A stretch of 57,090 nt of DNA from a virus, in IMG/VR virus record IMGVR_UViG_3300020193_000025, positions 1-57,090 of that record. One strand, written 5' to 3'. The position numbers were made by a program, and so were the translations under genes. This document shows, piece after piece, positions 18,957 to 57,090 of this stretch (the first letter of the stretch is position 1; every line of letters begins with the position of its first letter). The notes under the pieces are model-generated. The model worked only from the letters and a program-made list of their open reading frames with translations, was not told the origin of the DNA and ran no database searches.

Positions 18957-18967
18957 GGATCCTCTAG

Positions 18968-21900
18968 ATGCCCACAAGATTTACTCCAGGTGCAGGTGCT
19001 GTTCTGAGACCCTTTTTTGATTCTACTTATGGTGTTGAAAGGATAGAAGTTGTTTTTGGTGGTTCTGGATATGCGAAAACCGATCCACCAAAGGTACAGA
19101 TATTTGGCACACAAACACCAATAACTGAAGGTGTTTTTTATCCAGTTATCAGTGGTGTTGGTACTATAAAATCTGTAGTTATTTTTAAGTCTGGAGAAGG
19201 GTATTATCCAGTTTTTTCGACTACTACTGGTGGCCAAGTTTATGTTGATAGGGGAGTTTTTGGTACAACTGCAGGAGTACATACTACTGGGATTCAAAGT
19301 GTTTTTAACGGAGATTTCAATATTGTTGATGATAACATTTATTTTGCTTCTGCACCATATGGTAAAAGTGGACCCGTTGGTCTAGAAACTGGATCTAACT
19401 TTACTGGAAGAATTTTTTCTAGAAAAATTGATCCATTAAAGACTCAAGATAAAAATTTAATTTTAGATGACATATCCTTAGAATTTACTGGTCTGGCCGG
19501 CACTCAATTTAAATTGACAGAAAATTTTAACAAAGTTGACGCATTATTCAATAATGTCAATTCTGGATCTGACATCAATAATAATCCATTTATTTTAATT
19601 AATAATGTAAGTCAGACTCCAGGACTTGATTTTGAAATTGTAAATTCTACTGAAAATAATATTAATTTTCTAAGTGGAGTACCTAGAGCTGGAAGAATAA
19701 CAAAAGTCGGATTGCAAACTGGTTCTGGATATTATACTCAACTAAAAGCGTCAGGAACCATCGGTGTAAGCACCACAGGGACGTTATCATCAGTAAACCT
19801 TACTGGACCAGGAGCCGGGTACAGAAGTGCCCCAGAGGTCATTGTGAGGGGATCTCATGGATCTGGTGGACTTGTAACCGCGTTCTTGGGAACACTAGAT
19901 CCCACCGTCTATAATATTTCCACTGCAGTTTACAATAGACATGTTGGAATTGTAACTTTTACTACTTCGACAGCACACAATTACAAAGTTAATCAAAGAG
20001 TCAGAGTCGTTGGAGCGGGATTTACTTTTCCTGCACTTTCCGCAGTAAGAAATGTAAACACATTTGCATACAATCCAGTCAGTGGAATTGCAAGTATAAC
20101 TGTTTATGGTGGACATTATATTGGTACAGCAACTAATCGATCCAGAAATCTATTAGTAAAATCTATAGAAGTAACTGATGGTATATCTACTTTTCTTCTT
20201 AGAGAAGATGCATATCCAATAATTTCGGTTGGATCTACAAATAATGTAGAAATTAATATTGGAATTGGAACTACCTCATTAAGTTACGTTGCCGGTGGGC
20301 TAGTTCAGGCTGGTGTCGATACTGCTATTTTGGAGGGAGCGGACGTAGTTGGATTTGATATTCTTGGTGTAACTACTAACACCTTCAAAGTTTTTGTTGG
20401 ACTATCTACATTCGATCACACATATACTTCTGGTGGAAAGGTCCAAAGAAATGAAGTTGGCATTGTTACTGGATTGCAAATTATAAATGCAGGTCAAAAT
20501 TATTATACATCCCACAACGTTGCTTATGTTGATTATGAACCAGTAACTGGAGTAACTACAATAACTGGATATGGAAAAAAACTCGGAATAACAACAACAA
20601 TTGCAAATGTTTTTTATACCCCATCTACTGGTATTGCCACTATTCAGGGGACAAATGTCCATGGGTTGTCCATAAATGATGTTGTTAAATTATCTGGAAT
20701 TGGATTTAGTACTATAAATGGAAACATTACATTTCCATACACTTCCGATGCATTTTTTGCGGTAAAATCAATTCCAAGTACATTAGATTTTTCTGTCAAT
20801 ATTGGTATTTCCACCATTGGGGTACATACTCATCAAATGAGTACCGGCACATTTACTTTATACGAGGGACATGGATTAAAAACCGATGATTTTGCGGTGG
20901 TTTCTGGAATAGCCATGACCACAAATTATTGGCCACCAATTGATATAGGAAACGTTACGTATGATCATGTTACTGGTATAGCAACTATCACCACCAATTC
21001 TAATCATTATTTGGAAGAACGAGATTTTGTTATTCTTAGTGGTATTGCTATGACTTGCGGATATGATAATGGTGTAGGCATACTTACTTTCCCGAGAACT
21101 ACGGATCCTGCATATAATGGAGTTTTTGTTACTAATGTTGGTACGTCTACAGTATTCACTGCTAATGTAGGACCATCAACAACCCCACACACATATAATT
21201 CTGGCGGAACAATCCAACATGCGATAAGATATCCATTGCCCTACATGCAAGGATTTGATTTAATTTCACGACAATTTGGAGATGGATTTTATATCTTAGA
21301 AGTATATGATCAAGCTAGATTCAGAGTGTCCTCTGGACTGATTACCTCTAGATATAATTACAATAGAGGGGGAACTATAGAAAAACCAATTTCTTTGGAA
21401 ATTGTGGATCCAGATCCCTATTATAATATGAATTTAGAGTATGTATCTGGTTCTACTGGAATTGGAACAACGGGAATCGGAACTGGGGCTAAAGCAAACT
21501 TTTCAATTAATGTTGATGGTGATATCGGAGTTTTTGATGTAATTGAGGAGGGGTTGGCATATAAAGTTGGAGATAGACTAACAGTATCTGGTATATGCAC
21601 AGATGTTACAGTTGGTATAGTAACCCAATTTGAATTATCCGTTTTGGAAATTGCAAATGATAAATTTTTTGGATTTTATCCAGGTCAATTTATATTGTTT
21701 GATGATATTTCAAAATTTTTCAATGGAATTCGCAAAAAGTTTACTCTTTCTGTTACTACTGGTGGAGTGGTTTCTATTTTAAGTTTAAAAACAGAACCTG
21801 GTTCCGACTTGGATGTTACAAATAATATGTTCATTTATATTAATGATATATTGCAAACTCCAAATATTTCATATTCTTTTAGAGGAAGTAGAATTATATT

Positions 21901-45143: not shown

Positions 45144-45926
45144 ATGGCAACATATGGAAGTTATAAAAGAATCACTACTGATCGAGTAACACCTGCAAGT
45201 CTACCAGATAATGCATTTGCTACTGGTGTCGGATTCAAGTATGGCATTGCATGGATTAGAGGTCCTATAGGTGGCACTACTTCTGGGTGTTGCTGCCTTT
45301 GGACAGTACCGGCGGGTGTTCATAAATTAACTTTTGAACTTTGGGGAGCCGGTGGTAATAGTCACGGATTTTGTTCCTGGAACCGCTGCCATCACTATTT
45401 TGGTGCTGGGTCTGGCACTTACGCAACAAAAACAATTGCAACCGCGCCAGGGTGCCAGTACACTGTTTGTGCAGGCGGAACATTTCCTTGTTGTTCTTTT
45501 GAATGTGTTGGCTGTTGTGGTTGTGTTACGTATGTTAATGGATATAACTTGAGCAACTTCTGTTCTGTCGGAGGCAATCCAGGATGTGCTAATACAGACT
45601 GGAACACAATGTGTTATTCAGATTGGGACTGTTGTGTAGGCAGAACCATGAATAGTTCAGATTTTGCTATGGGAAATATGAGACCTGCAGGTACTGGACC
45701 GTTTAACTGCCATTGTTATAGACATACTTGGTGTGCTGCTAATGCTCCATTCCTCGCTGGATCAACCACCGGCGGTGAACTTGCTGAATGCTGGGTGCGA
45801 CATGCGTGTTGGACTTCGGTCTATGCCCAGGGTGGCGGCGGCGGAATGACCACTTATTGTGGAAACTGGGATAATGGTTATGGGGGAATCGGCGGCAGCG
45901 GCGTAGTTAAAATTACATACGTGTAA
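45144..45926 (+). CDS. Cys/Gly/Trp-rich protein, first of three tandem paralogues
   Basis: A 260-residue protein that opens with MATYGSYKRITTD and then contains GCCCLWTVPAGVHKLTFELWGAGG (residues ~48-71), CSWNRCHHYFGAG, GCQYTVCAGGTFPCCSFECVGCCGC (~102-126), YVNGYNLSNFC and a Gly/Trp-rich end (CGNWDNGYGG). By my count it has 24 cysteines, more than 9% of residues. The VPAGV..L.FELWGAGG segment is the signature of glycine-rich proteins of phage tail fibre tips; the extra Cys pairs are unusual. Cysteines may form disulphides outside the cell or bind metal. There is a terminator upstream and paralogues follow. Confidence 0.75.
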   Translation: MATYGSYKRITTDRVTPASLPDNAFATGVGFKYGIAWIRGPIGGTTSGCCCLWTVPAGVHKLTFELWGAGGNSHGFCSWNRCHHYFGAGSGTYATKTIATAPGCQYTVCAGGTFPCCSFECVGCCGCVTYVNGYNLSNFCSVGGNPGCANTDWNTMCYSDWDCCVGRTMNSSDFAMGNMRPAGTGPFNCHCYRHTWCAANAPFLAGSTTGGELAECWVRHACWTSVYAQGGGGGMTTYCGNWDNGYGGIGGSGVVKITYV

Positions 45927-45952
45927 ATATTAAGAGAGGAACCAAGTAAAAA

Positions 45953-46750
45953 ATGGCAAACTATTCATCTTACAAAAAAGTCTCTAGCGATATGGTTCCA
46001 GATGCATTCGTAACGGATGCTATGCTTGCTCCTGGAACTAGAAAAAACTACGGTGTTCAGTGGTTCCGTGGATCACCAAACTCTGTGAGCAGTGGTTGTT
46101 GCTGTTTATGGACAGTGCCAGCTGGCGTTTCTAAAATGCATATTGAGGCTTGGGGTAGTGGTGGTAATGGTCATGGATCTTGTTCCTGGGACCGCTGCCA
46201 TCACTTTAAAAGTGCCGGCGGCGGGCAATACAATTCAAAATATATATTAACTGTACCTGGGTGTCAGTATACTATTTGCGCTGGTGGTGTATTTCCTTGT
46301 TGTTCTTTTGACTGCACTGGATGTGAGGGATGTTCATCTTATGTGAATGGATATAATTTAAGTAACTTCTGTGCAGTTGGTGGAACCAGAGGATGTGCAA
46401 ATACTTCTTGGGCAGAAACTTGTTACTCCGCGTTTGAGTGTTGTTTAGCACCTGGTAATAATGGTGGAGATTTTGGTTTTATTTCTCACGGTGGCCGTTT
46501 TGGTTCGGTAGAGTGGTGGTTTGGTGTTGGATTCTGTCACTGTCACAAACAAACTACAAGATCATCAACGGCTCCTCTAATTGGAGCTAACGTAGAAATA
46601 TCAATTAATTACTGTTGGATTCGTCATGGTTGTTGGACTGTTCCATATGGCACTGGCGGCCAAGGATCACAGACGAGTTATTGTGGAGACTGGAATAATG
46701 GTTATGGAAATACTGGTGGTCCAGGATTAGTTAAAATTACGTATTTCTAA
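45953..46750 (+). CDS. Cys/Gly/Trp-rich protein, second paralogue
   Basis: A 265-residue protein, paralogue of the one at 45144 with the same order of blocks: MANYSSYKKVSSD, CCCLWTVPAGV, CSWDRCHHFK, GCQYTICAGG, CCSFDCTGCEGC, YVNGYNLSNFC, CWIRHGCWTVPYG, CGDWNNGYG. I count 22 cysteines. Unlike the others it has an extra segment (GGRFGSVEWWFGVGF, about residue 180-194). At DNA level several blocks are nearly identical to the third paralogue, for example the segment around 46166-46200. It is preceded by an AGAGGA ribosome-binding site. Function presumed as for the first. Confidence 0.75.
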   Translation: MANYSSYKKVSSDMVPDAFVTDAMLAPGTRKNYGVQWFRGSPNSVSSGCCCLWTVPAGVSKMHIEAWGSGGNGHGSCSWDRCHHFKSAGGGQYNSKYILTVPGCQYTICAGGVFPCCSFDCTGCEGCSSYVNGYNLSNFCAVGGTRGCANTSWAETCYSAFECCLAPGNNGGDFGFISHGGRFGSVEWWFGVGFCHCHKQTTRSSTAPLIGANVEISINYCWIRHGCWTVPYGTGGQGSQTSYCGDWNNGYGNTGGPGLVKITYF

Positions 46751-46756
46751 TAAATA
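46749..46756 (+). promoter_or_regulatory. Possible T4-type late promoter (AATAAATA)
   Basis: AATAAATA overlaps the stop codon of the second paralogue and lies 20 bases ahead of the third. One mismatch to the late consensus and an AT-rich context make it uncertain. Confidence 0.35.
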
Positions 46757-46776
46757 ATATAAACAGGATCTAAAAA

Positions 46777-47559
46777 ATGGCAAGTTACAGTTCCTACAAG
46801 CAATTAGCACCAACACAGTATGATGATGGTATCTTTACAGATGCAAAAATATCAAATGCAGCTTTTGCATCCTGGTGTGTTCAGTGGGTTTATGGGCAAC
46901 CAGAGGTTCTTGCTAGTGGGTGTTGCTGCCTTTGGACAGTTCCTGCTGGTGTATCAAGAGTAACTTTTGAACTTTGGGGATCTGGTGGTAATGGTCATGG
47001 ATCTTGTTCCTGGGACCGCTGCCATCACTTTAGAGGTGCTGGTGGTGGATATTACAACACAAAAACAATCACCACTGCAGCTGGGTGTCAGTACACTGTT
47101 TGTGCTGCTGGTGTATATCCTTGTTGTTCTTTTGAATGTGTTGGCTGTAACGGATGTTCATCTTATGTGAATGGATATAACTTGAGCAACTTCTGTGCAA
47201 TTGGTGGATACCGTGGCGAAGCTAATACTGCCTGGAACACAGCGTGCAATAGTGTTTATGAGTGTTGTTTAGGTCCTGGTGATAATGGTGGAGACTTTGG
47301 TATGGGTAACCACTCTGGAAACTTTGGTTGGCACGCGAGTAACTGCCATTGTCATTGTGTTGGAACAGCCCCTTCAGCAGCTCCTTTCATTGGGGGGGAT
47401 AGTCAACAACAACTTCATGAATGCTGGATTCGTCATGGTTGTTGGACTGTTCCAGCTGGATATGGTGGTATGGGAGCGATGACCACTTATTGTGGAAACT
47501 GGGATAATGGTTATGGAAATACTGGTGGTAGTGGTCTAGTTAAAATTACTTACGTTTAA
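46777..47559 (+). CDS. Cys/Gly/Trp-rich protein, third paralogue
   Basis: A 260-residue protein with the same block order as its two neighbours (CCCLWTVPAGVSRVTFELWG, CSWDRCHHFRGAG, GCQYTVCAAGVYPCCSFECVGCNGC, NCHCHC, CWIRHGCWTVPAG). It has about 22 cysteines; one cysteine conserved in the other two (RGCAN or PGCAN) is replaced (RGEAN). The first blocks resemble the first paralogue (FELWG), the middle resembles the second, which suggests exchange between copies. An intrinsic terminator follows at 47585. Confidence 0.75.
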   Translation: MASYSSYKQLAPTQYDDGIFTDAKISNAAFASWCVQWVYGQPEVLASGCCCLWTVPAGVSRVTFELWGSGGNGHGSCSWDRCHHFRGAGGGYYNTKTITTAAGCQYTVCAAGVYPCCSFECVGCNGCSSYVNGYNLSNFCAIGGYRGEANTAWNTACNSVYECCLGPGDNGGDFGMGNHSGNFGWHASNCHCHCVGTAPSAAPFIGGDSQQQLHECWIRHGCWTVPAGYGGMGAMTTYCGNWDNGYGNTGGSGLVKITYV

Positions 47560-47665: not shown

Positions 47666-48544
47666 ATGGCAACAAAAATTATTAAAGTAGAGTTTGATCT
47701 ACCTCTTCCAAATGAGTACCTTGTAGATCATGGATATGATAAAGGAAATTCAAGAAAATACACATATCATGGGCCAGATAAAATATATTTACAAATTGGC
47801 CAGGATGGCAGCGAAAAATATGGCCCACTCACCGAAGATGACATTGCAGATGGTCGTCCTCAACCCCTTGATGTCGTAGAGTGGTTTGAAGTTGATTGCA
47901 CCAAATACCCTCTTGTTTGCCAACTAAGAGGTCCCATCGTAAATGAGTCGCAGGAAATTTCTGGACCTATTGGTCCAGACGGGAAAACACCGAATCCACA
48001 AAAAGGTGCAGCTGCCGGGTCTGTTAAGGCACATCCACAATCACCAGATCTGGATGGATATGAGCGGTATGTATATAGTTTGCCCATCCTTCCAAAATTT
48101 ATTCATGATCCTCTTTCCGTAAAAGTAGTTGATGGTGTTCCCGTTGTAAGACCATTTACGGTAAACGAGTGTGTATTAGGAGTTGATAGAGAATTTACTA
48201 TCACTGATTTGAGAATTCATAGAAACCAAATGTTAAATGCTTCAGATTCTAGCATTTCATCGGATATGCCAGAATTTGCAGTAAATGCATTTAAGACATT
48301 TAGACAGGGTTTACGAGATTGGCCAGATTTGGTGGAAACCAAAAAGATTCCAGTACATATTGCCTTAAAAATGGCTCCTATCCATCCAGATACAAATACT
48401 CCTAATGTTGGAGTAGGCGCATATGCTGCAGCTGCTGCTGGTGATGCACGAGCTGCAGAGATTAAATCAAGACAGGAGGAACTTAGAGAATTGGCTGAGG
48501 AAGAAGGCCGTAAACAGATGGAAAGAGCGAAGTATAAGGGATAA
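47666..48544 (+). CDS. Tail-associated protein with chaperone-like segment
   Basis: A 292-residue protein (MATKIIKVEFDLPLPNEYLVDHGYDKGN...). The N-terminal half is beta-rich with many Pro and Gly (GPDKIYLQIGQDGSEKYGPL, SGPIGPDGKTPNPQKGAAAG). The segment FKTFRQGLRDWPDLVETKKIP (residues ~210-230) resembles the YRQ.LRD.P motif of tail-assembly-chaperone proteins that help fibre folding. The C-terminus is a long charged helix with Ala/Glu repeats (AAEIKSRQEELRELAEEEGRKQMERAKY), probably a coiled coil. A fibre assembly or attachment role is likely. It lies alone between a promoter and a terminator. Confidence 0.6.
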   Translation: MATKIIKVEFDLPLPNEYLVDHGYDKGNSRKYTYHGPDKIYLQIGQDGSEKYGPLTEDDIADGRPQPLDVVEWFEVDCTKYPLVCQLRGPIVNESQEISGPIGPDGKTPNPQKGAAAGSVKAHPQSPDLDGYERYVYSLPILPKFIHDPLSVKVVDGVPVVRPFTVNECVLGVDREFTITDLRIHRNQMLNASDSSISSDMPEFAVNAFKTFRQGLRDWPDLVETKKIPVHIALKMAPIHPDTNTPNVGVGAYAAAAAGDARAAEIKSRQEELRELAEEEGRKQMERAKYKG

Positions 48545-48562
48545 TAATTACATAGTTAAAAG

Positions 48563-48581
48563 GGGGGGTCAATGACCCCCC
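48563..48581 (+). terminator. Intrinsic terminator-like hairpin
   Basis: GGGGGGTC (48563-48570), a three-base loop AAT and GACCCCCC (48574-48581) form a perfect stem of eight base pairs. It is followed by TAAATAGTTTT, a weak T-tract. It separates the structural genes from the glycosyltransferase and the modification cluster. Confidence 0.7.
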
Positions 48582-48619
48582 TAAATAGTTTTAAGTTGAA
48601 TTTGATATTTTAAATTCTC

Positions 48620-49765
48620 ATGAGATCTAAAGCATTTTTTATTAACGGCGGCGCCGGTAGAGTAATTTGTTCTATTCCTGCATTTGAAAAGTATGCAGAA
48701 ACACATGAAGATTTTATTATCGTGTGTGAAGGGGGAACCGATTTTTTCAAAGGACATCCAATATTACACAATAAAGTTTACGACAATTGGCACAAGGGAC
48801 TATTCGAAGATCAACTGATTCATAGAGATCTTATTAGTCCAGAACCATATAGAAATTGGCATTATTACAATCAAAAGTGCAGTCTTTCTCAAGCTTTTGA
48901 CATCATTATTAACGATCTGGATGATCCTAGGGAACTTCCAGATCCAACATTAAACCTCACTAAAATGGAGGTTTGTACAGCTCAAAATATACTAAAAGAA
49001 ATTAAATCTGGTACAGGAAAAGATAAAGTTGTAATCATACAACCTTTTGGTAGATCAGTACAATCTCTAGAAGATTTTATTGTTGACCCCACTTCAAGAA
49101 GTATGAATTTGGTCAATACTATTGATATTATTAATGACCTTAAAAAAGATTATTCGATAATTATTATGAGTGAAATTCATTTTCCTCTTGAAGAAAACGA
49201 AGATAAATCAAAATATAAGGTTGCTAGACCCCAAATTGAAGATGTTCGACTTTGGGCCGCATTAATTGAAGGTGCAGATCATTTCATTGGATGCGATAGT
49301 GTAGGACAACATATTGCAAAAGCCGTTGGTACGACAGCAACGATTATTATTGGATCAACTTTCCCAATCAATATTTCTTATCCAAATTTTTCTGGATTCG
49401 ATATTATTGATATTGGAGATGGTAAGAGGAAGTATGATCCAATCAGGGTTTCTATCGATGATGAAAGAACAAGATTTAACGATCAATCATGCGAAATGTC
49501 CAAAGAACAGGTTAAAATGGTAATTGAGTCCGCAAGAAAGAGATTGGGAAAATCAGTTGAATATAAACGACCCCAAATAGAACCAAAAAAACCCGATAGT
49601 TCTACTAATAATAATTCTGGATATCCAATTGTTCCAAGTCAACTACCAAGTTTAAAACCACAAAAATTGGAAATTCCCAACTCAATCCTCAGTTCCGCAA
49701 GTAAAACAAAAGTATCTAAGGGTTTTAAAGAAGAAGTAGAAAATTTGCTTAAGTCAACAAAATAA
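48620..49765 (+). CDS. Glycosyltransferase family 9-like (heptosyltransferase type)
   Basis: A 381-residue protein. The N-terminus FINGGAGRVICSIPAFEKYA (residues ~7-26) has the Gly-rich loop of GT-B enzymes, and GADHFIGCDSVGQHIAKAVGTTATIIIGSTFPINISYP (~214-251) is the C-terminal donor-binding signature of family 9 transferases (GxDSG.xH.A.A.G......G...P....P). Family 9 includes the ADP-heptose:LPS heptosyltransferases. A Pro/Lys/Ser-rich linker and a short helix (FKEEVENLLKS) at ~320-381 are extra. The HldE-like pair at 55880-57047 makes an activated heptose a plausible donor. The gene begins 38 bases after a hairpin, and the carbamoyltransferase follows 14 bases after its stop. Confidence 0.75.
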   Translation: MRSKAFFINGGAGRVICSIPAFEKYAETHEDFIIVCEGGTDFFKGHPILHNKVYDNWHKGLFEDQLIHRDLISPEPYRNWHYYNQKCSLSQAFDIIINDLDDPRELPDPTLNLTKMEVCTAQNILKEIKSGTGKDKVVIIQPFGRSVQSLEDFIVDPTSRSMNLVNTIDIINDLKKDYSIIIMSEIHFPLEENEDKSKYKVARPQIEDVRLWAALIEGADHFIGCDSVGQHIAKAVGTTATIIIGSTFPINISYPNFSGFDIIDIGDGKRKYDPIRVSIDDERTRFNDQSCEMSKEQVKMVIESARKRLGKSVEYKRPQIEPKKPDSSTNNNSGYPIVPSQLPSLKPQKLEIPNSILSSASKTKVSKGFKEEVENLLKSTK

Positions 49766-49779
49766 CAAGGAGATTTATT

Positions 49780-51582
49780 ATGGATCAATGGATTGCTGGT
49801 ATAACCAGAGGTCACAATTCTGGTGTATGTTTGATTAAGAACGGCGAATTGGTATTTGCCATTGAAGAAGAAAGACTATCAAGAGCAAAGTATGATGGTG
49901 GACCTTTTGCAGCAATGATAAAGATCCTAGAATATACCAACAGATTGGATTACCTCGTTGTAGCACATACGCAATCGTTAGTTCAAACTGCAGGCCGAGT
50001 TGATTTTAGTGGGGATGATGTCTATACTGGTTTGGCAAGAAAACTTGGATTAATAGACAGGAAATCCAAACTACAGGATCATCCACAAGTCATTGATTTA
50101 AGTAGAACTCACCACAAACTTCATGCTGCTTGTGCATTCTATAGATCTGGATTTAAAGATGCTGTCGCATTAATTGTTGATGGTGCAGGAACATTCATCC
50201 AAATGAATATTGGTAATCAAGTAGAAACTACTTGGGAACTAGAAACCATTTTTGATTGTAAATATCCTGCAGATTTTAAAACACTCTATAAACATCAGGG
50301 TGGTAGAGGACCTTGGGGATCAGCAAGAATTGAAAAATTCCCAAGTGATGGGGAAGGTGAGGAAGGAACTCACGAATTCGTTCTTGATGACAGTGCAGGT
50401 ATCACAAAAGCATACGAAGCAGTAACGCAATACTGCGGTTGGGCTCCAATTGAGGCTGGTAAAACTATGGGACTATTCCCATACGGACAACCAAATGAAA
50501 AAATTCCAAAAATTTACTCTGATATTGGTGGAAATTCAAATTGGAAGACGGCAAACCGAGATGTAATTATTCCAACATATCCAAATGGTGCTCTAGTTAA
50601 TGAAGGTAGATTTCCAGAATTGTACACACCAGAAAACTTTGATGGGGATCTAACCCAATTAAAAAATAGAAGAGATATGGCTTATGCAATCCAAACCCAA
50701 TCTCAATCAATGGTTTTGGATTTAATTAGAAAGGCCGTAAAAATTAGTGGCAAAAATAACGTTGTTATCTCAGGTGGTTATGCACTAAATTGTGTTGCAA
50801 ATTACTGGTATCTAGAACAACTGAAAGACGAAGGAATCAATCTATATGTAGAACCAGTTAGTAATGATGCGGGGACTGCAATTGGAGCTGCATATTTGCA
50901 ATATTACAGAACAACAAATGATAATAAAATTAGAGAACCACTTAAAACTTTATATTCTGGACCAATATACACGTACACAATCGAAGATATCGTAGATATT
51001 GCCGATAAGTATGGTGCTGATAGAGTATTTGAAGCAAGCAATGAAGATGTCGTTGAATTGATTTCTGATAAAAATATTGTTGCTCTCTTCCAAGGAAGAT
51101 CGGAAGCTGGTCCTCGTGCTCTTGGTAATCGTTCCATTCTTTATGATCCTCGTGATCCTGATGGAAAAGACCATGTGAATTCAATTAAACATAGGGAATA
51201 TTTCCGACCATTCGCTGGATCTATTCTAAACGAACATGTTCATGAATGGTTTGATCTTCGTGGAATGGAAGATACTCCTTTCATGATGTATGCTGTCAAT
51301 TGTAAAGAAGGCATTGAGGAAAAAATTCCAGCGATCATTCATGTTGATGGGACATGTAGAATTCAGACAGTAACAAAAGAAGAAAATAAGAACTATCATG
51401 ATCTAATTGAGACATTTTACAAAAAAACTGGCTGTCCAATTATTTTCAATACGTCTTTCAACTTAGGTGGAGAACCACTAGTAGAAGATCTTGATGATGC
51501 TTGTCGCACTTTAGAAAACAGTCTAATCGAGTACTTATATCTTCCAGAATATGGATTAATGATTGAGGTGAAAAATAAGTAA
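49780..51582 (+). CDS. Carbamoyltransferase (NodU/CmcH family)
   Basis: A 600-residue protein of typical length for the family. The N-terminal ASKHA-type half starts with WIAGITRGHNSGVCLIKNGELVFAIEEERLSRAKYDG, followed by RTHHKLHAACAFYRSGF (residues ~108-124; His residues bind metal), ALIVDGAGTF, GKTMGLFPYG and VVISGGYALNCVANYWY (~328-344). The C-terminal half has LFQGRSEAGPRALGNRSIL (~439-457), YFRPFAGSI and GCPIIFNTSFNLGGEPLV (~549-566). Family members move the carbamoyl group of carbamoyl phosphate, as carbamoyl-AMP, to a hydroxyl of a sugar or antibiotic. Good ribosome-binding site AAGGAG (49767-49772). The next gene overlaps its stop by one base. Confidence 0.88.
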   Translation: MDQWIAGITRGHNSGVCLIKNGELVFAIEEERLSRAKYDGGPFAAMIKILEYTNRLDYLVVAHTQSLVQTAGRVDFSGDDVYTGLARKLGLIDRKSKLQDHPQVIDLSRTHHKLHAACAFYRSGFKDAVALIVDGAGTFIQMNIGNQVETTWELETIFDCKYPADFKTLYKHQGGRGPWGSARIEKFPSDGEGEEGTHEFVLDDSAGITKAYEAVTQYCGWAPIEAGKTMGLFPYGQPNEKIPKIYSDIGGNSNWKTANRDVIIPTYPNGALVNEGRFPELYTPENFDGDLTQLKNRRDMAYAIQTQSQSMVLDLIRKAVKISGKNNVVISGGYALNCVANYWYLEQLKDEGINLYVEPVSNDAGTAIGAAYLQYYRTTNDNKIREPLKTLYSGPIYTYTIEDIVDIADKYGADRVFEASNEDVVELISDKNIVALFQGRSEAGPRALGNRSILYDPRDPDGKDHVNSIKHREYFRPFAGSILNEHVHEWFDLRGMEDTPFMMYAVNCKEGIEEKIPAIIHVDGTCRIQTVTKEENKNYHDLIETFYKKTGCPIIFNTSFNLGGEPLVEDLDDACRTLENSLIEYLYLPEYGLMIEVKNK

Positions 51583-53102
51583 TGCAAAGAAAAGCCAAAT
51601 CAATAACCATTGTTGGTGGTGGTAGTTCTGCGTGGTTAACTGCAGCACTTTTAAATAATAGTATTAAAAAATATAGAGAAATCTACGTTATTGATAAAGA
51701 AGTAGGCACTCCAGTTGGAGTGGGAGAAGCTACAATCCTAAGTTTCAAAAAATTTATGGATGATTGTGGATTCTCTATCCTAGATTGGTTCAGTGAAATA
51801 TCAGCAACTTTCAAAGGTGGTATTTTATTTGAGAATTGGCTTGGAAAAGAAAATCATGTTTGGCATCCATTTGCATTTCCAGATTTCCAATATAATCAAA
51901 CAACAATGTTGGAACATTGGTCAAATTGTCAAGAATTAGATTTTAAAACACATTCTCTTGTCCACTATAATGTTTGCACAAAAGACCAAAAAATAGATCC
52001 AGATAACATAGGAATCTATGCATTTCATATTGATGCTGCACTACTAGTCAAATACATCAAATCAAGAATTGTTGGAAATGGAGTGACATTCATACAATCT
52101 GAAGTAAAAGGTATTGTCAGGGACGATAATGGTTATGTTACAGAATTGGTTTTAAACAATGGGGAAGTTCATAAGTCAGATTTGTTTGTTGATTGTACTG
52201 GATTCAATGGACTATTAAAAGAAAAGAATGATAGAGTTGATTTAAGTGACAGACTATTCTGTGATACTGCAGTTTGCACTCAAGTTCCATATTTGAATAG
52301 AGAGATTGAACTCAAACCATACACTGGATGTGATGCAGTAGATCATGGATGGATTTGGAAAATTCCAGTAAAGAATAGAATTGGTTCTGGTTTAGTTTTT
52401 AATAGATCAGTTACTGATATTGAAGAGGCAAAAGAGTACTTTGTTAAATATTGGGACAATAGGATTACCAAAGAAGAACTAAAAGTTCTGGATTGGACAC
52501 CTTTCTACAATAAAAACTTCTGGGAAAAAAATATTGTTTCCGTTGGACTTGCTGCTGGATTCATTGAACCTTTGGAAAGTACTGGTATTGGACTTGCTTG
52601 TGCAGGAGCATGGGGATTATTGAATCGAATTAAAACAACAGAATTTGATTCACATGATATCGATTTTTATAATGCAGAACTAAAATGTTTCTTTGAAAAC
52701 TGCATAGATTTTGTCAATATGCATTATTCAAAATCTAAGAAAGAAGGTAAATTCTGGGAGTGGGTACATCAAACTTATAAACCAACCGAAAAATTCTCAT
52801 ATCACATTGATGAGATGAAATCGAACACGATTGATATTGTTGACGAAGGGAAAGAAATGTTTTCTTTTAACAACTGGATGTGTTGGATGATTCAATTGGG
52901 TCATGAAATTTCGCCAAAAATTAGATCAAACTCAGTTCAAAATTCTGAAGATCTGGTTAAAGATTTCTATTCTAATGAAAAAAATAAGTATGATTACTTA
53001 CCTACAGCTTCGGTATACAATGACTACTTTAACGCACTAACTACACTCACAAAAGAAGTGATAAATCCGTATAAGAACAATGAAAAGACCAAACTTTATT
53101 AA
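51582..53102 (+). CDS. Flavin-dependent tryptophan-halogenase-like protein
   Basis: A 506-residue protein with the FAD fold of PrnA/RebH-type halogenases. IVGGGSSAWLTAALL (residues ~10-24) is the FAD-binding loop, and GVGEAT (46-51) is conserved. TFKGGILFENW (76-86) carries K78, equivalent to the catalytic Lys79 of PrnA. HGWIWKIP (255-262) is the W-x-W-x-I-P motif, and GFIEPLESTGI (326-336) carries E332 and S333, equivalent to Glu346 and Ser347 of PrnA. The key residues are therefore intact. Known reaction: chlorination or bromination of the indole ring with reduced FAD; the real substrate is unknown. No flavin reductase is seen in the window. It overlaps its neighbours on both sides (1 and 23 bases). 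Confidence 0.85.
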   Translation: MQRKAKSITIVGGGSSAWLTAALLNNSIKKYREIYVIDKEVGTPVGVGEATILSFKKFMDDCGFSILDWFSEISATFKGGILFENWLGKENHVWHPFAFPDFQYNQTTMLEHWSNCQELDFKTHSLVHYNVCTKDQKIDPDNIGIYAFHIDAALLVKYIKSRIVGNGVTFIQSEVKGIVRDDNGYVTELVLNNGEVHKSDLFVDCTGFNGLLKEKNDRVDLSDRLFCDTAVCTQVPYLNREIELKPYTGCDAVDHGWIWKIPVKNRIGSGLVFNRSVTDIEEAKEYFVKYWDNRITKEELKVLDWTPFYNKNFWEKNIVSVGLAAGFIEPLESTGIGLACAGAWGLLNRIKTTEFDSHDIDFYNAELKCFFENCIDFVNMHYSKSKKEGKFWEWVHQTYKPTEKFSYHIDEMKSNTIDIVDEGKEMFSFNNWMCWMIQLGHEISPKIRSNSVQNSEDLVKDFYSNEKNKYDYLPTASVYNDYFNALTTLTKEVINPYKNNEKTKLY

Positions 53103-53805
53103 TGAATCCGAAGTATTTGCAATAAACCCAGGACTTGAAGCTTCTGTACATGTAATTGGACCAGAAGAAGTAAAAGTAGTCGTTATTGAAAATTTTTATT
53201 TAAATCCAGATTTGGTAAGAGAATTGGCGTTAACAATTCCGCCAACAGAAAATTCAAAAATTTTAGCAGGATCTCCTGGAACTAGGGTTTTTGGACATTA
53301 TAATTTTGTTAGTATGTTCCCCATCTTTCAACATATTTTTAGAAACGTATATCCTGAGGTGACAAAAGAAGTAACAGACGAAGAAATGAAGTCCAGTATC
53401 TGCAATACTCCATTCTGTGTAAATATCAGTCAGTCTGACAAGATGCCTCCTGTTGTTCCCCATATTGATGATGAAGATAGAATGTTATTTGCTGGAGCTT
53501 TATACCTCAATAAACCCGATGAGTGTTCTGGTGGAACATCTTTTTACATGTTAGATGGAAAACAACAAGTAACAAATACATATGTTGGTGATTGGTTGAA
53601 AAAAAATAATCATACAAATTTTTATACTCATTACTTAACTGACAGTGAAGATGATTGGGATCTTTTATCTGTTGCAGAAATGAAGTATAATAGATTAATA
53701 ATTTATCCTGGAAACGTTCTGCATACTGCATACGTAAAACCAGAAATGTTTACAGATGACAAATATAGACTAGTCCAGATGTTTTTTATAGCACTTAAAT
53801 CATAA
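53080..53805 (+). CDS. 2-oxoglutarate/Fe(II) dioxygenase-like protein 1
   Basis: A 241-residue protein. The double-stranded beta-helix core runs from VVPHIDDEDRMLFAGALYLNKPDECSGGTSFY (residues ~125-156) to NRLIIYPGNVLHTAYVKPEMFTDDKYRLVQMFF (~204-236). H128 and D130 (HxD), H215 (LHTA) and R230 (YRLVQ) form the expected iron triad and the 2-oxoglutarate-binding arginine. The N-terminal part FINESEVFAINPGLEASVHVIG and the family layout resemble DUF6445 proteins, which I associate, from memory, with halogenase-containing loci. It is a clear paralogue of the protein at 54518. It overlaps the halogenase gene by 23 bases. Confidence 0.8.
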   Translation: MKRPNFINESEVFAINPGLEASVHVIGPEEVKVVVIENFYLNPDLVRELALTIPPTENSKILAGSPGTRVFGHYNFVSMFPIFQHIFRNVYPEVTKEVTDEEMKSSICNTPFCVNISQSDKMPPVVPHIDDEDRMLFAGALYLNKPDECSGGTSFYMLDGKQQVTNTYVGDWLKKNNHTNFYTHYLTDSEDDWDLLSVAEMKYNRLIIYPGNVLHTAYVKPEMFTDDKYRLVQMFFIALKS

Positions 53806-54521
53806 TGAGTTTTACTTCTAGATTTCCATCAATTTGTATTGATGGATTTTATTCCGAACCAGATGAAATCGTCAAATGGGCTTCATCTTTAGAATATAAT
53901 AAAGACCCCAAGTCTGGATGGCCTGGTTGGAGAACTCCGCCACTATCCACTATTGATTATCAATTTGATGATCAATTTAGTAAAAAATTAATGGGAGTAT
54001 TTTTTGATCTAGATCGAGATTGGGTTAGTTGGGAGATACAAACTCATTTCCAAATTATAAAACCATTTTCTGGTGATAAAAATGATCCAAGGAATTGGGG
54101 TTGGGTTCATCAGGATTCTGATGGTGTTTATGATTTGGTAAAAGGATTTGAACCAATGAAATGCGAGTACGCAGGAATTTTATATTTAACTCCAGAGGCA
54201 GATTTGGACACTGGTACATCTATTTTTAGATCAAAAGTAAAAGATCCAGACACAAAACAGCCTTTCAAAAAAGAACTATTTTCTGGAGAAGAAATTGAGT
54301 TTGAAAAATATAAAGAAGGTATGATTAATGCTAGATCTCAATTTGAAGAGACAATACGTTACTGCAATGTATACAATAGATTAATTGCATTTGAAGCGTC
54401 AAATTACCATGCAGCAATGAACTTCAAAATGGATTCCGATAAGATTAGATTGACTCAAGTATTTTTTATAAAAAATATTAAAACACAGGTCAATCCAATT
54501 CTAAGAGGATTTTTAAGATGA
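53805..54521 (+). CDS. 2-oxoglutarate/Fe(II) dioxygenase-like protein 2
   Basis: A 238-residue protein. The core shows GWVHQDSDGVYDL (residues ~99-111), AGILYLTPEADLDTGTSIFR (~123-142), YNRLIAFEASNYHAAMNF (~190-207) and DKIRLTQVFF (~212-221). H102 and D104, H202 and R215 form the expected triad and arginine. It is only distantly similar to proteins 1 and 3; the opening (FPSICIDGFYSEPDEIVKWASSLEY) is that of the family in which the N-terminal helix describes the fold. It is inserted between the two paralogues 53080 and 54518, overlapping them by one and four bases. Confidence 0.78.
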   Translation: MSFTSRFPSICIDGFYSEPDEIVKWASSLEYNKDPKSGWPGWRTPPLSTIDYQFDDQFSKKLMGVFFDLDRDWVSWEIQTHFQIIKPFSGDKNDPRNWGWVHQDSDGVYDLVKGFEPMKCEYAGILYLTPEADLDTGTSIFRSKVKDPDTKQPFKKELFSGEEIEFEKYKEGMINARSQFEETIRYCNVYNRLIAFEASNYHAAMNFKMDSDKIRLTQVFFIKNIKTQVNPILRGFLR

Positions 54522-55309
54522 AAAAAAATTTTATTAATGAGGATGAAGTTTTTGCCTTGAATGAAGGATTGGAAGCAAAAGTTTATACTATAGGTCCAGA
54601 AAAAGCCAAAATAACCTATGTTGATAATTTTTATAAAAATCCAGATTTGGTTAGGGACCTTGCGTTAACAATTCCACCAACAAGGAATCCAATTATTATG
54701 GCTGGAGCTCCTGGATCTAGAGTCGATGCGTATTATAATTTTTCCCCCATGTCTCCATTTTTTCATTATATTTTTAGAAATGTTTACGGAGATATAGTTA
54801 AAGATATATCTGATGAAAAAATTTATGATTCCATGAAAGGAGTCACTTTTTGCGTAAATGTAACTCAATCAGACATTCTCAATCCAATTGTCCCACATGT
54901 AGATGATACTGGAGACCTACTTTTTGCAGCAACCGTATATCTCAATAAACCAGAAGAATGTGCGGGAGGAACTTCCTTTTATACTTTAGAAGGAGAACAG
55001 CGAAGTAGTGCAGATAAAATTGATGCATGGTTAAAAAAAGTAGGCAAGTATCCATACTATGATAATTATATTACTGACAGTGAATCTGACTGGGAAATGA
55101 TTCATTTGGCTGAAATGCAGTATAATAGGTTTGTAATCTATCCAGCAAATATTTTACACACAGGATATATAAAACCAGAAATGTTTACTGGAGACACTCA
55201 TCGTTTAGTCCAGATGTTCTTTGTTTTTCTTGGCGGACCAGGATCATTCTTACCAGTGAATCATAATGAATATAAAAAATACTTAGAGAATAAAGATGCA
55301 TCTAGTTAA
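54518..55309 (+). CDS. 2-oxoglutarate/Fe(II) dioxygenase-like protein 3
   Basis: A 263-residue protein, paralogue of the one at 53080 over nearly its whole length: NFINEDEVFALNEGLEAKVYTIG, NPDLVRDLALTIPPTRNP, PHVDDTGDLLFAATVYLNKPEECAGGTSFY, NRFVIYPANILHTGYIKPEMFTGDTHRLVQMFF. H127, D129, H214 and R229 correspond to the triad and the 2-oxoglutarate-binding arginine. A 25-residue tail (GGPGSFLPVNHNEYKKYLENKDASS) is extra. Duplication followed by change of the tail suggests two different substrates or sites. It overlaps the next gene by 14 bases. Confidence 0.8.
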   Translation: MKKNFINEDEVFALNEGLEAKVYTIGPEKAKITYVDNFYKNPDLVRDLALTIPPTRNPIIMAGAPGSRVDAYYNFSPMSPFFHYIFRNVYGDIVKDISDEKIYDSMKGVTFCVNVTQSDILNPIVPHVDDTGDLLFAATVYLNKPEECAGGTSFYTLEGEQRSSADKIDAWLKKVGKYPYYDNYITDSESDWEMIHLAEMQYNRFVIYPANILHTGYIKPEMFTGDTHRLVQMFFVFLGGPGSFLPVNHNEYKKYLENKDASS

Positions 55310-55883
55310 GGCTTTTGAAAATTTTATTTCTATAGAAGAAAAAAATATTTTAAACAAATGGACTCTTGCGAATTATAATCAAGATTATTTTATTGACCCA
55401 AGAATGGATTCTCGGGGATTAAAAAGAACGAAGTTAACAACTAGGTTTGCTACTCCATTAGTTACACCATCATTATTTGTAAGTTCAAACTCAAATTTTG
55501 AGTATCCGAGTTTAGTATACAACATACAAAGAAGAATAATATATACCTTTGGATTTAATGAATATGGTTTGTCTCCAGTTGGCAAGAATGGTATAATTAC
55601 AGAAATAGGTTTTAAGGGAGGAACTGTACATCCACATATTGATCCAGTTTGGATTGAAAATACGGATACTATTCATTGCAATATAATAACACAAAAACCA
55701 AAATCTGGTGGAATTACATATATTGAAAATGAACCGTGGGAGGTTAATGAAACTGATCTTCTGATGTATGTTGTATCTTCGGCAGAACATAAGGTAGATG
55801 AAATCATTGGGGACAAAAATAGAATATTATGGATTTTTAGTTTTATCTTATCAAAAAATGATGCGGAGAAAATTTTATCATGA
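55296..55883 (+). CDS. 2-oxoglutarate/Fe(II) dioxygenase-like protein 4
   Basis: A 195-residue protein, the smallest of the four. GGTVHPHIDPVWI (residues ~108-120) carries H114 and D116, SSAEHKVDEI (~161-170) carries H165 and KNRILWIF carries R176, the expected set for a 2-oxoglutarate-dependent oxygenase; ITQKPKSGGITYIENEP lies between. Similar proteins (without the family name known to me) are frequent in cyanophages. It ends four bases into the nucleotidyltransferase gene (ATGA overlap). Confidence 0.72.
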   Translation: MHLVKAFENFISIEEKNILNKWTLANYNQDYFIDPRMDSRGLKRTKLTTRFATPLVTPSLFVSSNSNFEYPSLVYNIQRRIIYTFGFNEYGLSPVGKNGIITEIGFKGGTVHPHIDPVWIENTDTIHCNIITQKPKSGGITYIENEPWEVNETDLLMYVVSSAEHKVDEIIGDKNRILWIFSFILSKNDAEKILS

Positions 55884-56281
55884 AAACAGTTTTTGTTAAT
55901 GGTACTTTCGATATCCTGCACCCAGGACATATAGAACTTTTCAAAGTTGCTAAATCTTTGGGAGATAGGGTCATTGTCGCAACGGATAGTGACGAAAAAA
56001 TTCGTAGGGATAAAGGACCAAATAAACCCATTAATGATCTATGTCACAGAGTTTCTATGCTCCAATCAATTAGATACATAGATATGGTTCTATATTTTAA
56101 TACTAAAGAAGAGTTGGAATCAATTATAAAATTATACCAACCAGACATTCTTCTCTTGGGAAATGATTGGGAGAATGGAATAGTAATTGGAAAAGAATTT
56201 GCAAAATCCGTAAGATTTTTTCCTAGGGTTGGAAATTATTCTACTAGTAATATTGTTAATAAGATCAAAAATCATGAGTAA
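55880..56281 (+). CDS. Nucleotidyltransferase resembling the C-terminal half of HldE
   Basis: A 133-residue protein of the cytidylyltransferase-like superfamily. VNGTFDILHPGHIELFKVAKSLGDRVIVATDSDEKIRRDKGPNKPIN (residues ~5-51) matches the HldE nucleotidyltransferase (NG.FDILHAGHVSYL..A..LGDRLIVAVNSD.S..RLKG..RP.N), including the HxGH ATP-binding motif (H14, G16, H17). PDILLLGNDW (~89-98) and GNYSTSNIVNKI (~117-128) match the distal motifs KGGDY and GCSTTNII of the same enzyme. Known reaction: heptose 1-phosphate + ATP to ADP-heptose + PPi. It ends 8 bases into the kinase gene. Confidence 0.82.
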   Translation: MKTVFVNGTFDILHPGHIELFKVAKSLGDRVIVATDSDEKIRRDKGPNKPINDLCHRVSMLQSIRYIDMVLYFNTKEELESIIKLYQPDILLLGNDWENGIVIGKEFAKSVRFFPRVGNYSTSNIVNKIKNHE

Positions 56282-57047
56282 TTTTTCGGTATTAGTTGTT
56301 GGCGATTCATGCGAAGATGAGTATGTTTATGGATCGGTCACTAGGATCAGTCCAGAAGCTCCTGTACCCGTATTAAAGTATGAATACTTAGAAAAGTCTT
56401 TAGGAATGGCTGCAAATGTCAATGAGAACTTAAAATCTTTTGGAATGCAAACAAATCTTGTCACACAAAAAGAAAAAATAGTAAAAAGAAGATTTATTGA
56501 TAGACAAACAGGACAACAGTTGATGCGAATGGATGAAGAAAACGTATCTACATTTTGCAGTGCAGCTCAGATCCGAATTGCTTTCATTCATGGAAATTAT
56601 GATGTCTTAGTGATTTCGGATTATGATAAGGGATTTTTGGGTTACAGTGAATTAGAAGATCTATGTCAAAGTTTTGATGGTCCTGTTTTTGTAGATACAA
56701 AGAAAAAAAGACTTATTAAAAAAGAAAATGTATTTTTCAAAATAAATTTAAAAGAGTATGAGAAATTAGACAAGGATTGTTTGCCGGATCCAACAAATTT
56801 AATTGTAACTCTTGGGGCAAATGGTGTAAAATGGAATGGTATAGACTTTGCATCCGAGAAAGTACCAGTATATGATGTAGTTGGAGCGGGAGATACTTTT
56901 CTTGCGGCTTTAGTTTATCATTATATGATTACGTCAACTATGAAAGAGTCTATTGAATTTGCAAATAAAGCTGCTGCACTTGCAGTTCAGCATCCTGGGA
57001 CTTATAAACTTACTGAAAATGACATTAATTTACTGTGTGGATATTGA
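56274..57047 (+). CDS. PfkB-family sugar kinase resembling the N-terminal half of HldE
   Basis: A 257-residue protein. VVGDSCEDEYVYGSVTRISPEAPVPVLK (residues ~8-35) corresponds to the HldE kinase start (VVGDVMLDRYWYGP..RISPEAPVPVV). KRRFIDRQTGQQLMRMDEE (~70-88), YDVLVISDYDKG, VYDVVGAGDTFLAALVYHY (~209-228; GAGDT has the catalytic Asp) and LAVQHPGT follow. About 25 residues present in E. coli HldE between the ANV segment and the RxxxRxxQQLxR segment are missing, and the GGAAN motif reads GMAAN. Known reaction: phosphorylation of heptose 7-phosphate at C1. ATG at 56274 chosen because the conserved part begins there; the upstream ATG (56229) lies in the preceding gene. Confidence 0.8.
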   Translation: MSNFSVLVVGDSCEDEYVYGSVTRISPEAPVPVLKYEYLEKSLGMAANVNENLKSFGMQTNLVTQKEKIVKRRFIDRQTGQQLMRMDEENVSTFCSAAQIRIAFIHGNYDVLVISDYDKGFLGYSELEDLCQSFDGPVFVDTKKKRLIKKENVFFKINLKEYEKLDKDCLPDPTNLIVTLGANGVKWNGIDFASEKVPVYDVVGAGDTFLAALVYHYMITSTMKESIEFANKAAALAVQHPGTYKLTENDINLLCGY

Positions 57048-57090
57048 TGGTACAATTTGTAATAATTCCAAAGATGGAAATTATATATCA
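57019..57090 (+). CDS. HAD-type phosphatase, N-terminal part only
   Basis: 24 codons up to the window end: MTLIYCVDIDGTICNNSKDG followed by NYIS. DIDGT is the DxDGT motif I of haloacid-dehalogenase-type phosphatases, with the nucleophile Asp at residue 8 and the acid/base Asp at residue 10. The ATG at 57019 overlaps the kinase gene by 29 bases. In the HldE pathway a phosphatase (GmhB) acts between the kinase and the nucleotidyltransferase; the small HAD gene at this place would fit that step, but the rest of the protein is outside the window. Confidence 0.7.
   Translation, partial: MTLIYCVDIDGTICNNSKDGNYIS

Follow-up and report, generated by a model that had tools for sequence, protein, structure and literature searches.

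The window analysed here is the whole 57,090-base virus record IMGVR_UViG_3300020193_000025, and between positions 48620 and 57090 it carries a cassette of ten same-strand genes, encoding a glycosyltransferase assigned to family GT9, an O-carbamoyltransferase (CT), a halogenase, four proteins resembling 2-oxoglutarate (2OG)-Fe(II) oxygenases, HldC-like and HldA-like enzymes of heptose activation and the beginning of a HAD phosphatase (Table 1). A first-pass annotation had described these genes as co-directional, with junctions that overlap from 49780 onward by 1, 23, 1, 4, 14, 4, 8 and 29 bases. All coordinates and overlaps were reproduced in the open reading frame (ORF) calls, confirming the ten-gene overlapping operon. 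The annotation placed the cassette directly after adhesin genes; the gene immediately upstream encodes a chaperone-like protein, and the adhesin-like genes lie one gene further up. Its family calls held for the CT, the halogenase, the HldC/HldA-like pair and the HAD, the GT9 call being weak by sequence and supported by the predicted fold. Three of its four dioxygenases match PF20043 and the fourth has no Pfam family, with the HxD...H...R pattern visible. A longer twin of the window, the 116,601-base contig IMGVR_UViG_3300020198_000002 (L086), shares 99.95-99.96% identity with it across the two stretches compared (11.2 and 15.5 kb) and supplies the parts of the cassette beyond the window end: a complete HAD, a cupin and an epimerase. 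The annotation had proposed looking there for further sugar genes, and the epimerase and cupin are what was found; GmhA is absent from the L086 stretch read past the epimerase, where the genes, judged by position and by the order in S-SSM7, are gp13 to gp18.

Table 1. Features of the cassette and the region upstream of it (window positions unless L086 is named)
Feature	Position	Strand	Basis
Cys/Gly-rich fibre-tip-like protein 1, 24 Cys in 260 aa	45144..45926	+	phrog_4205 (unknown function)
Cys/Gly-rich fibre-tip-like protein 2, 22 Cys in 265 aa	45953..46750	+	phrog scan, Cys count
Cys/Gly-rich fibre-tip-like protein 3, 23 Cys in 260 aa	46777..47559	+	PF21722 26.6 bits (cut-off 24.3); predicted fold
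Fibre-assembly-chaperone-like protein	47666..48544	+	weak matches only: PF16778 E 0.002, below cut-off; phrog_9740; phrog_4912
Terminator-like hairpin, 9 pairs, ahead of cassette	48562..48582	+	
CTAAATA late-promoter-like element, 39 nt before GT9 start, after terminator-like hairpin	48581..48587	+	
GT9 / heptosyltransferase-like glycosyltransferase, disordered tail and short C-terminal helix	48620..49765	+	phrog_8954; AF2 (AlphaFold2) pLDDT 86; Foldseek, VIA-align
NodU/TobZ-type O-carbamoyltransferase (CT)	49780..51582	+	PF16861 205 bits, PF02543 100 bits; PDB 7xb6, GdmN, TobZ
Flavin-dependent halogenase, slot-1 tailoring gene	51582..53102	+	PF04820; PrnA E 1e-64; VirX1 6qgm E 4e-50; catalytic K/E
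DUF6445, 2OG-Fe(II) oxygenase-like 1	53080..53805	+	PF20043; HxD...H...R
DUF6445, 2OG-Fe(II) oxygenase-like 2	53805..54521	+	PF20043; HxD...H...R
DUF6445, 2OG-Fe(II) oxygenase-like 3	54518..55309	+	PF20043; HxD...H...R
Fourth oxygenase-like protein, without Pfam family	55296..55883	+	HxD...H...R seen in sequence; phrog_13746 E 0.001
HldC-like heptose-1-phosphate nucleotidyltransferase	55880..56281	+	PF01467; TIGR02199 108 bits (cut-off 181.5)
Compact HldA-like heptose-7-phosphate kinase	56274..57047	+	TIGR02198 E 1e-42; PDB 4e84 E 6e-26 by profile
Capless HAD phosphatase start, 24 codons before contig end	57019->57090	+	complete copy in L086; 9iqw; TIGR01689
Complete HAD	L086:11140-11466		same L086 stretch as cupin
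Cupin	L086:11450-11809		
HldD-like epimerase	L086:11781-12590	opposite to cassette	

The cassette follows a scaffold order, adhesins - GT9 - CT - variable slot - HldC - HldA kinase - HAD - cupin - reversed HldD epimerase, and the order of its core genes is the same in the annotated phages S-SSM7, Sf-FS3, S-CAM1, P-SSM2 and S-CAM3. Together with the clusters of a wider survey, these phages bear out the conservation of order that the annotation had put forward as a check. The survey comprised 302 loci (the five annotated regions and scans), merged to 254 stretches, 171 of them with GT9. Sequences of GT9, HldC, halogenase, cupin and adhesin served to retrieve the contigs, with the best 80 per scan at most, and the frequencies given here are conditional on those queries. 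The 254 stretches still contain reversed copies of one record (L273 is the reverse of L032). Clustering on GT9-CT at 95% gave 133 clusters, 69 of which are complete to the cupin and epimerase; cluster counts (133, 93, 90 and 69) and the tree of 68 cassettes are dereplicated, and counts of contigs, motif conservation, adhesin loci and the cupin scan are not. The CT lies within two genes after GT9 in 164 of 171 stretches, also in L273; five stretches end just past GT9, and in L223+L224 the CT is three genes away. The epimerase is on the reverse strand in 68 of the 69 complete clusters. Downstream of it, 29 of the 58 clusters that could be read there have gp13/gp14, 6 have a fibre-labelled gene and 23 have other genes. 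Judged by gene content and order, the window carries a gene-rich form of a cyanophage cassette whose scaffold is fixed and whose tailoring genes change.

The scaffold genes can be read as an ADP-heptose pathway that is nearly complete, together with a GT9 heptosyltransferase. The HldC-like protein matches TIGR02199 (E 3e-31), the kinase TIGR02198 (146 bits, cut-off 345) and the epimerase TIGR02197 (E 1e-66, 225 bits, cut-off 274.6) and, by profile, PDB 1eq2 (E 1e-58). The HAD, which by its matches is of the capless, capsule-phosphatase type, resembles the capsule biosynthesis phosphatase 9iqw (E 2e-15) and, below cut-off, TIGR01689 (E 3e-7). The kinase, nucleotidyltransferase and epimerase thus have homologues in the bacterial pathway, from which the cassette differs in having a split HldE, an EcbF/BcbF-type HAD for GmhB and a cupin for GmhA. 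We do not claim that the hosts lack a heptose pathway: the S. elongatus control matches the kinase family at 1e-50, and the search covered no marine picocyanobacterial genomes. The motifs GAGDTF (163 of 185 kinases, median open frame 258 aa) and Y[AG]xxK (125 of 128 epimerases) are widely kept. Stuffer DNA or selfish carriage without function is an idea already in print, where 'LPS' (lipopolysaccharide) clusters are tied to larger genomes (PMC3037559). It is nevertheless highly improbable for these genes, as motifs are retained (both catalytic residues in 101 of 105 halogenases, the metal motif in 161 of 161 cupins, HxGH in 181 of 182 HldC proteins) and the epimerase keeps the same reversed place throughout nearly all complete clusters.

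The enzyme that stands where GmhA would be expected is the cupin. GmhA/SIS_2 families (TIGR00441, PF13580) have no match in any of six phage records (one being a fragment of 116.6 kb), and a profile built from 7 GmhA sequences has none in 7,339 ORFs of viral contigs. The cupin carries HxH....E plus a later His in every sequence counted above, and its sole PDB sequence match at 0.001 is D-lyxose ketol-isomerase (E 5e-4). It lies within 6 kb in 33 of the 34 HldC-scan viral contigs that have the kinase and room for it; conversely, kinase and HldC occur within 6 kb in 44 of 47 cupin-scan contigs. The same cupin family is found in bacteria as HldA kinase-cupin fusions beside HldC and HldD, in L314:9035-10330 (Ca. 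Levyibacteriota) and L315:9029-10336 (Ca. Parcubacteria). By family scan the L314 fusion neighbours a GmhB phosphatase and a heptosyltransferase, and similar proteins were seen, unscanned, in L315; unlike the phage cassette, these loci are bacterial, with the two proteins fused, a GmhB-type phosphatase (L314) and no CT label. In two fusions the cupin part matches the C-terminal part of GMP_PMI. This part is the mannose-6-phosphate isomerase, with a ketose-to-manno-aldose chemistry like that of GmhA.

Bacterial genomes with a strong HldA kinase divide between the two proteins. In a first draw of 286 genomes, 15 had a kinase match better than 1e-50. The cupin is fused to the kinase in four of these, N-terminally in G169 and G191 and C-terminally in G221 and G001, and adjoins it in G013. 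None of the five has a GmhA-like match: G221 shows nothing at all, the weak profile matches in G169, G191 and G001 fall in frames of 588-644 aa, read as glmS size, and that in G013 covers 62 residues (E 8.7e-4) of a 187-aa frame. In the remaining ten GmhA is present (E 2e-54 to 6e-64) and no cupin is linked, GmhA adjoining the kinase in eight, being fused to it in G127 and lying on another contig in G113; G098 and G053, just under the kinase threshold, also have GmhA. Seven more kinase genomes came from another draw, of 310 genomes; each has GmhA and lacks a linked cupin (G295 has one weak unlinked match). The same draw contained G002, in which the kinase-cupin fusion is present and GmhA is not. 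The 23 genomes thus fall into 6 with a linked cupin but without GmhA and 17 with GmhA but without a linked cupin (Fisher p = 1/100,947, or 1/5,985 without G001 and G002, which were found via the cupin; kinship is ignored). Because linked cupin and GmhA are mutually exclusive in the genomes examined, we propose the cupin as the GmhA replacement, and on these sequence patterns it likely fills the GmhA step as a sedoheptulose-7-phosphate isomerase. Fusion in both orders together with one adjacency argues for more than one replacement event. This would predict a new enzyme, a phosphoheptose isomerase of the cupin kind, in genomes that have HldA and lack GmhA.

By sequence the GT9 gene product has no Pfam family at 0.01, its profile has no PDB sequence match, and what it does match is TIGR02201 (E 1e-4 over 36 residues) and phrog_8954 (unknown function, E 5e-150); nothing in the window matches the GT4-type PF00534. 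Its AF2 model (pLDDT, predicted local distance difference test, 86) aligns in VIA-align to 3tov (GT9) with Z 23.3, 280 aligned residues and a root-mean-square deviation of 3.6, to WaaF with Z 21.1 and to TibC with Z 19.7; plant photosynthetic NDH-complex relatives of the GT9 fold follow at Z 19, and the next fold outside reaches Z 11.8. Foldseek ranks TibC first by E-value, with a higher TM-score for 3tov. The predicted structure is a GT9 heptosyltransferase fold (GT-B) and supports the GT9 call, which is weak by sequence. TibC heptosylates an adhesin, and the TibC/Aah system pairs enzyme with adhesin. In that system, as in the cassette, a GT9-fold heptosyltransferase is encoded beside surface adhesins; the cassette differs in its ~14% identity to TibC and in an adhesin that is fibre-tip-like rather than an autotransporter and is a putative acceptor. 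The autotransporter-heptosyltransferase family name is missing among the GT9 family-library matches, and the likeness to TibC is one of fold. At its C-terminus (49616-49765) the GT9 model has a low-confidence linker, residues 333-368, and then a short predicted helix; a KGF...LLK-like motif recurs in this helix in many relatives and is possibly a docking peptide.

In an adhesin-first survey covering the best 80 of 359 adhesin loci, GT9 lies downstream of the adhesin in all 68 decidable loci, the other 12 ending too early, and 87 of the 90 clusters with more than 4.5 kb upstream have an adhesin, fibre or chaperone label there. The predicted fold of Cys/Gly-rich protein 3 (pLDDT 80) resembles the cyanophage Pam3 fibre 7ypx (Z 15.8) and the Bxb1 tail tip (Z 11.5), the next match being the ALK glycine-rich domain (Z 9.9); the adhesin profile finds nothing in a PDB sequence search. 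The chaperone-like protein matches phrog_9740 (unknown function, E 5e-26) and the tail-fibre-assembly phrog_4912 (E 0.001). The three tandem Gly-rich paralogues of the window (45144-47559) have 22-24 Cys each, a density unusual for a fibre tip. In 37 aligned adhesin sequences Cys is invariant at 16 positions and nearly so at 3 more; Cys content barely distinguishes strong from weak adhesin matches (10.1 vs 9.2%).

Of 130 clusters, 77 have a late-type [ACT]TAAATA motif in the 100 bp ahead of GT9, compared with 0.022 per 100 bp in the coding DNA inside the cassette. Where a DUF6445 gene comes before GT9 (61 clusters), the motif is absent from the 100 bp upstream of that DUF6445 gene (0 of 61). 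Across the window, ATAAATA and CTAAATA show no enrichment (14 vs 26 and 2 vs 14 expected). Of its 22 plus-strand [ACT]TAAATA matches, 10 sit 10-50 nt ahead of a gene start, and two matches fall inside the halogenase gene; the motifs are informative through placement only. From the promoter-like motif we infer late expression of the cassette. A scan for sigma-70 sites was dropped as uninformative (64 sites vs 49.5 +/- 7.7 in shuffles).

Our reading, to which we give a slightly better than even chance, is that this late phage operon makes ADP-heptose, attaches heptose to the phage's own Cys/Gly-rich fibre-tip proteins and tailors it. The cupin, in place of GmhA, would convert sedoheptulose-7-phosphate to D-glycero-D-manno-heptose-7-phosphate, the HldA-like kinase would make the 1,7-bisphosphate, the HAD would yield the 1-phosphate and the HldC-like enzyme would turn this into ADP-heptose, to be epimerised at C6 by the HldD-like enzyme. 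GT9 would then transfer heptose to the adhesin, and carbamoylation by the CT would follow the transfer. Exchangeable slot enzymes might add hydroxyl groups (DUF6445 and other 2OG oxygenases) or halogenate an aromatic group, resulting in a variable fibre surface. In this scheme, what we infer is the isomerisation by the cupin, the adhesin as acceptor and the order in which the tailoring steps follow. A broader version, held more tentatively and at somewhat less than even confidence, is of a self-contained late fibre-tip heptosylation whose cupin isomerase, not recognised before, is common to bacteria of the Patescibacteria kind without GmhA and whose rapidly exchanged halogenases, hydroxylases and carbamoyltransferases diversify the receptor-binding surface by chemistry instead of by sequence.

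The annotation had suggested decoration of either the virion or the host surface, and this is still the best class of explanation; the operon adjoins fibre genes in conserved order. Between the two, a virion acceptor is favoured over host LPS because of the adhesin linkage, the fold matches, the late-type motif and the heptose-free LPS of WH8102. In the alternative, a heptose glycan would be placed on the LPS or exopolysaccharide of the infected cell and would block superinfection or grazing, a role in print for the 'LPS' clusters of P-SSM2 (PMC2984593) and for pelagimyophage glycosyltransferases (PMC7029224). We consider this unlikely while giving it real weight. The described LPS of marine Synechococcus WH8102 and CC9311 contains neither heptose nor KDO (PMC4515613), a setting unlike that of the bacterial ADP-heptose pathway, yet Sf-FS3, whose recorded host is WH8102, carries the cassette; the constant position of GT9 after adhesins and the late-type motif often found ahead of it also speak for the virion. 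Fibre-tip heptosylation would offer a reason for heptose genes in a phage whose host LPS has no heptose.

Several observations weigh against our reading. The conserved position beside fibre genes might reflect nothing more than the T4-like order of the genome. In its fold GT9 resembles LPS heptosyltransferases at least as much as it does TibC (3tov 23.3, WaaF 21.1, against TibC 19.7), which equally suits a host-surface target, and the model cannot tell protein from LPS acceptors. The heptose module is also met away from GT9 and among other sugar genes without adhesins: of 47 cupin-scan contigs, 12 have a GT9 gene within 6 kb, a limit shorter than the GT9-cupin distance in the fullest cassettes. 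Because HldC, kinase and epimerase all score under their equivalog cut-offs, another related C7 sugar is possible. The phage cupin has no NCBIfam match, and its family is wider than the pathway, with matches in 56 of 286 genomes, most without a strong kinase; five of the ten GmhA genomes (G220, G035, G071, G161, G183) have an unlinked, weaker cupin match (best 2e-20). L114 and L149 lack the HAD and cupin just past the kinase, as do, by layout, L117, L121, L122, L136 and L155. Finally, the association of halogenase with strong adhesins (27 of 38 cassettes with a strong adhesin have a slot-1 halogenase, none of 30 without) comes down to one clade. Since it is essentially a single clade on the GT9+CT tree, with no informative independent pair, we rejected halogenase-adhesin co-variation and do not count the association as evidence.

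Among the tailoring enzymes, the CT exceeds the cut-off for both carbamoyltransferase domains, PF02543 and PF16861. The halogenase (PF04820, Trp_halogenase, E 5e-97) has PDB-level matches including PrnA, RebH and VirX1 and is by these matches a member of the flavin-dependent tryptophan-halogenase family. It shares the catalytic Lys and Glu and WxWxIP with VirX1 and PrnA, K78 and E332 aligning with K79/E346 of PrnA; of the 4 relatives that do not keep both, three have Ser for Glu and one is truncated. VirX1 comes from cyanophage Syn10; the Syn10 halogenase is 28.7% identical to the window's copy, which is placed in a heptose cassette. H128, D130, H215 and R230 of DUF6445 are invariant in 40 aligned rows, so the annotation's remark on intact catalytic motifs holds for both enzymes. 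An S-SSM7 relative matches DUF6445 and, below cut-off, PF13640; the DUF6445 profile has no PDB sequence match, and the superfamily assignment comes from the sequence motif.

What occupies the slot between CT and HldC/kinase changes readily. Of the 93 clusters in which it can be read, 31 have nothing there, 43 have a halogenase, 7 have DUF6445 and 4 have relatives of the fourth oxygenase of the window; the five-gene slot of the window's twin is the fullest among them. The cassette of Sf-FS3 carries no halogenase. On the GT9+CT tree of 68 cassettes the slot content as labelled, including frames marked '?', changes at least 31 times. Window and listed phage halogenases (60 of 66) are 25-32% identical, except for S-SSM7 and S-SSM6a at 39%; of the 66 phage records found to have a halogenase 60 were listed, 53 of these being outside the 55 GT9-bearing records, and the entries of P-SSM2 and P-SSM5 have halogenase and GT9 ~60 kb apart. 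As slot contents swap and halogenases occur mostly without GT9, the cassette is better described as a fixed sugar scaffold with exchangeable tailoring than as the complete pathway for one modified product that the annotation had envisaged. Independent occurrence of the genes in related phages, which it had named as contrary evidence, is found for the halogenase; the scaffold is conserved. In several cassettes (L140, L154, L029+L126 and others) slot 1 has two or three consecutive halogenase-labelled frames, possibly split genes.

The same variability bears on a diffusible halogenated or carbamoylated small molecule made during infection. Such a product would suit the natural-product-like tailoring, with a CT that matches GdmN and TobZ and a halogenase that matches PrnA and RebH, and protection by an antibiotic has been suggested for prnA (PMC2984593). 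However, no polyketide synthase or nonribosomal peptide synthetase that could make a core scaffold is among the cassette proteins scanned, and it is GT9 and the heptose genes that are constant while halogenase and oxygenases vary; we consider it very unlikely. Kinases, oxygenases and carbamoyltransferases can also occur in hypermodification of DNA. That the cassette modifies bases of the phage DNA is the least probable of the explanations considered, since HldD-like and GT9-fold enzymes, the fibre linkage and the late-type motif fit it poorly.

Part of this cluster is already published, and the cassette is a variant of a known cyanophage cluster. The 'LPS' cluster of P-SSM2, S-SM2 and S-SSM7 (T4-GC 302-308) contains the core genes, in an order shared by S-SSM7 and P-SSM2; slot 1 is empty in P-SSM2, whereas in the window it holds the halogenase and four oxygenase-like genes. 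The co-occurrence of GC 304, 305, 307 and 308 in three phages has been described, leaving open whether these 'LPS genes' are functional or stuffer DNA (PMC3037559). A host-surface role and antibiotic protection through prnA have been suggested for P-SSM2-type clusters (PMC2984593), SynMITS9220M01 carries heptose genes (PMC7378029) and halogenases occur in 20 of 153 cyanophages (PMC10452541). The new parts are the cupin assignment and the adhesin-heptosyltransferase link; the titles and abstract openings searched, in a mostly non-subscription literature, hold no earlier statement of a cupin replacing GmhA or of phage fibre heptosylation. Our reading would give a specific role to what in 2010 were termed 'LPS genes' or possible stuffer DNA, and would place some puzzling viral halogenases in a context.

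Public names in the 'LPS' cluster conceal the functions of the HAD, cupin and DUF6445. Those of S-SSM7 (L001) look misleading at 13658-14317, 18960-19514, 23055-23390 and 23368-23769: the 'minor coat protein' is DUF6445, the 'DNA endonuclease V' matches 2OG-FeII_Oxy_3, the 'phosphoheptose isomerase' is the HAD and the 'cysteine dioxygenase' is the cupin. In L032 and L015+L150 a HAD-cupin(-oxygenase) segment is inverted within the cassette. Kinase, HldC, HAD and cupin stand together without GT9 in the marine contigs L305, L307, L308 and L312, and two cassette contigs, L303 and L327, are binned into bacterial or archaeal metagenome-assembled genomes, probably as phage contamination.

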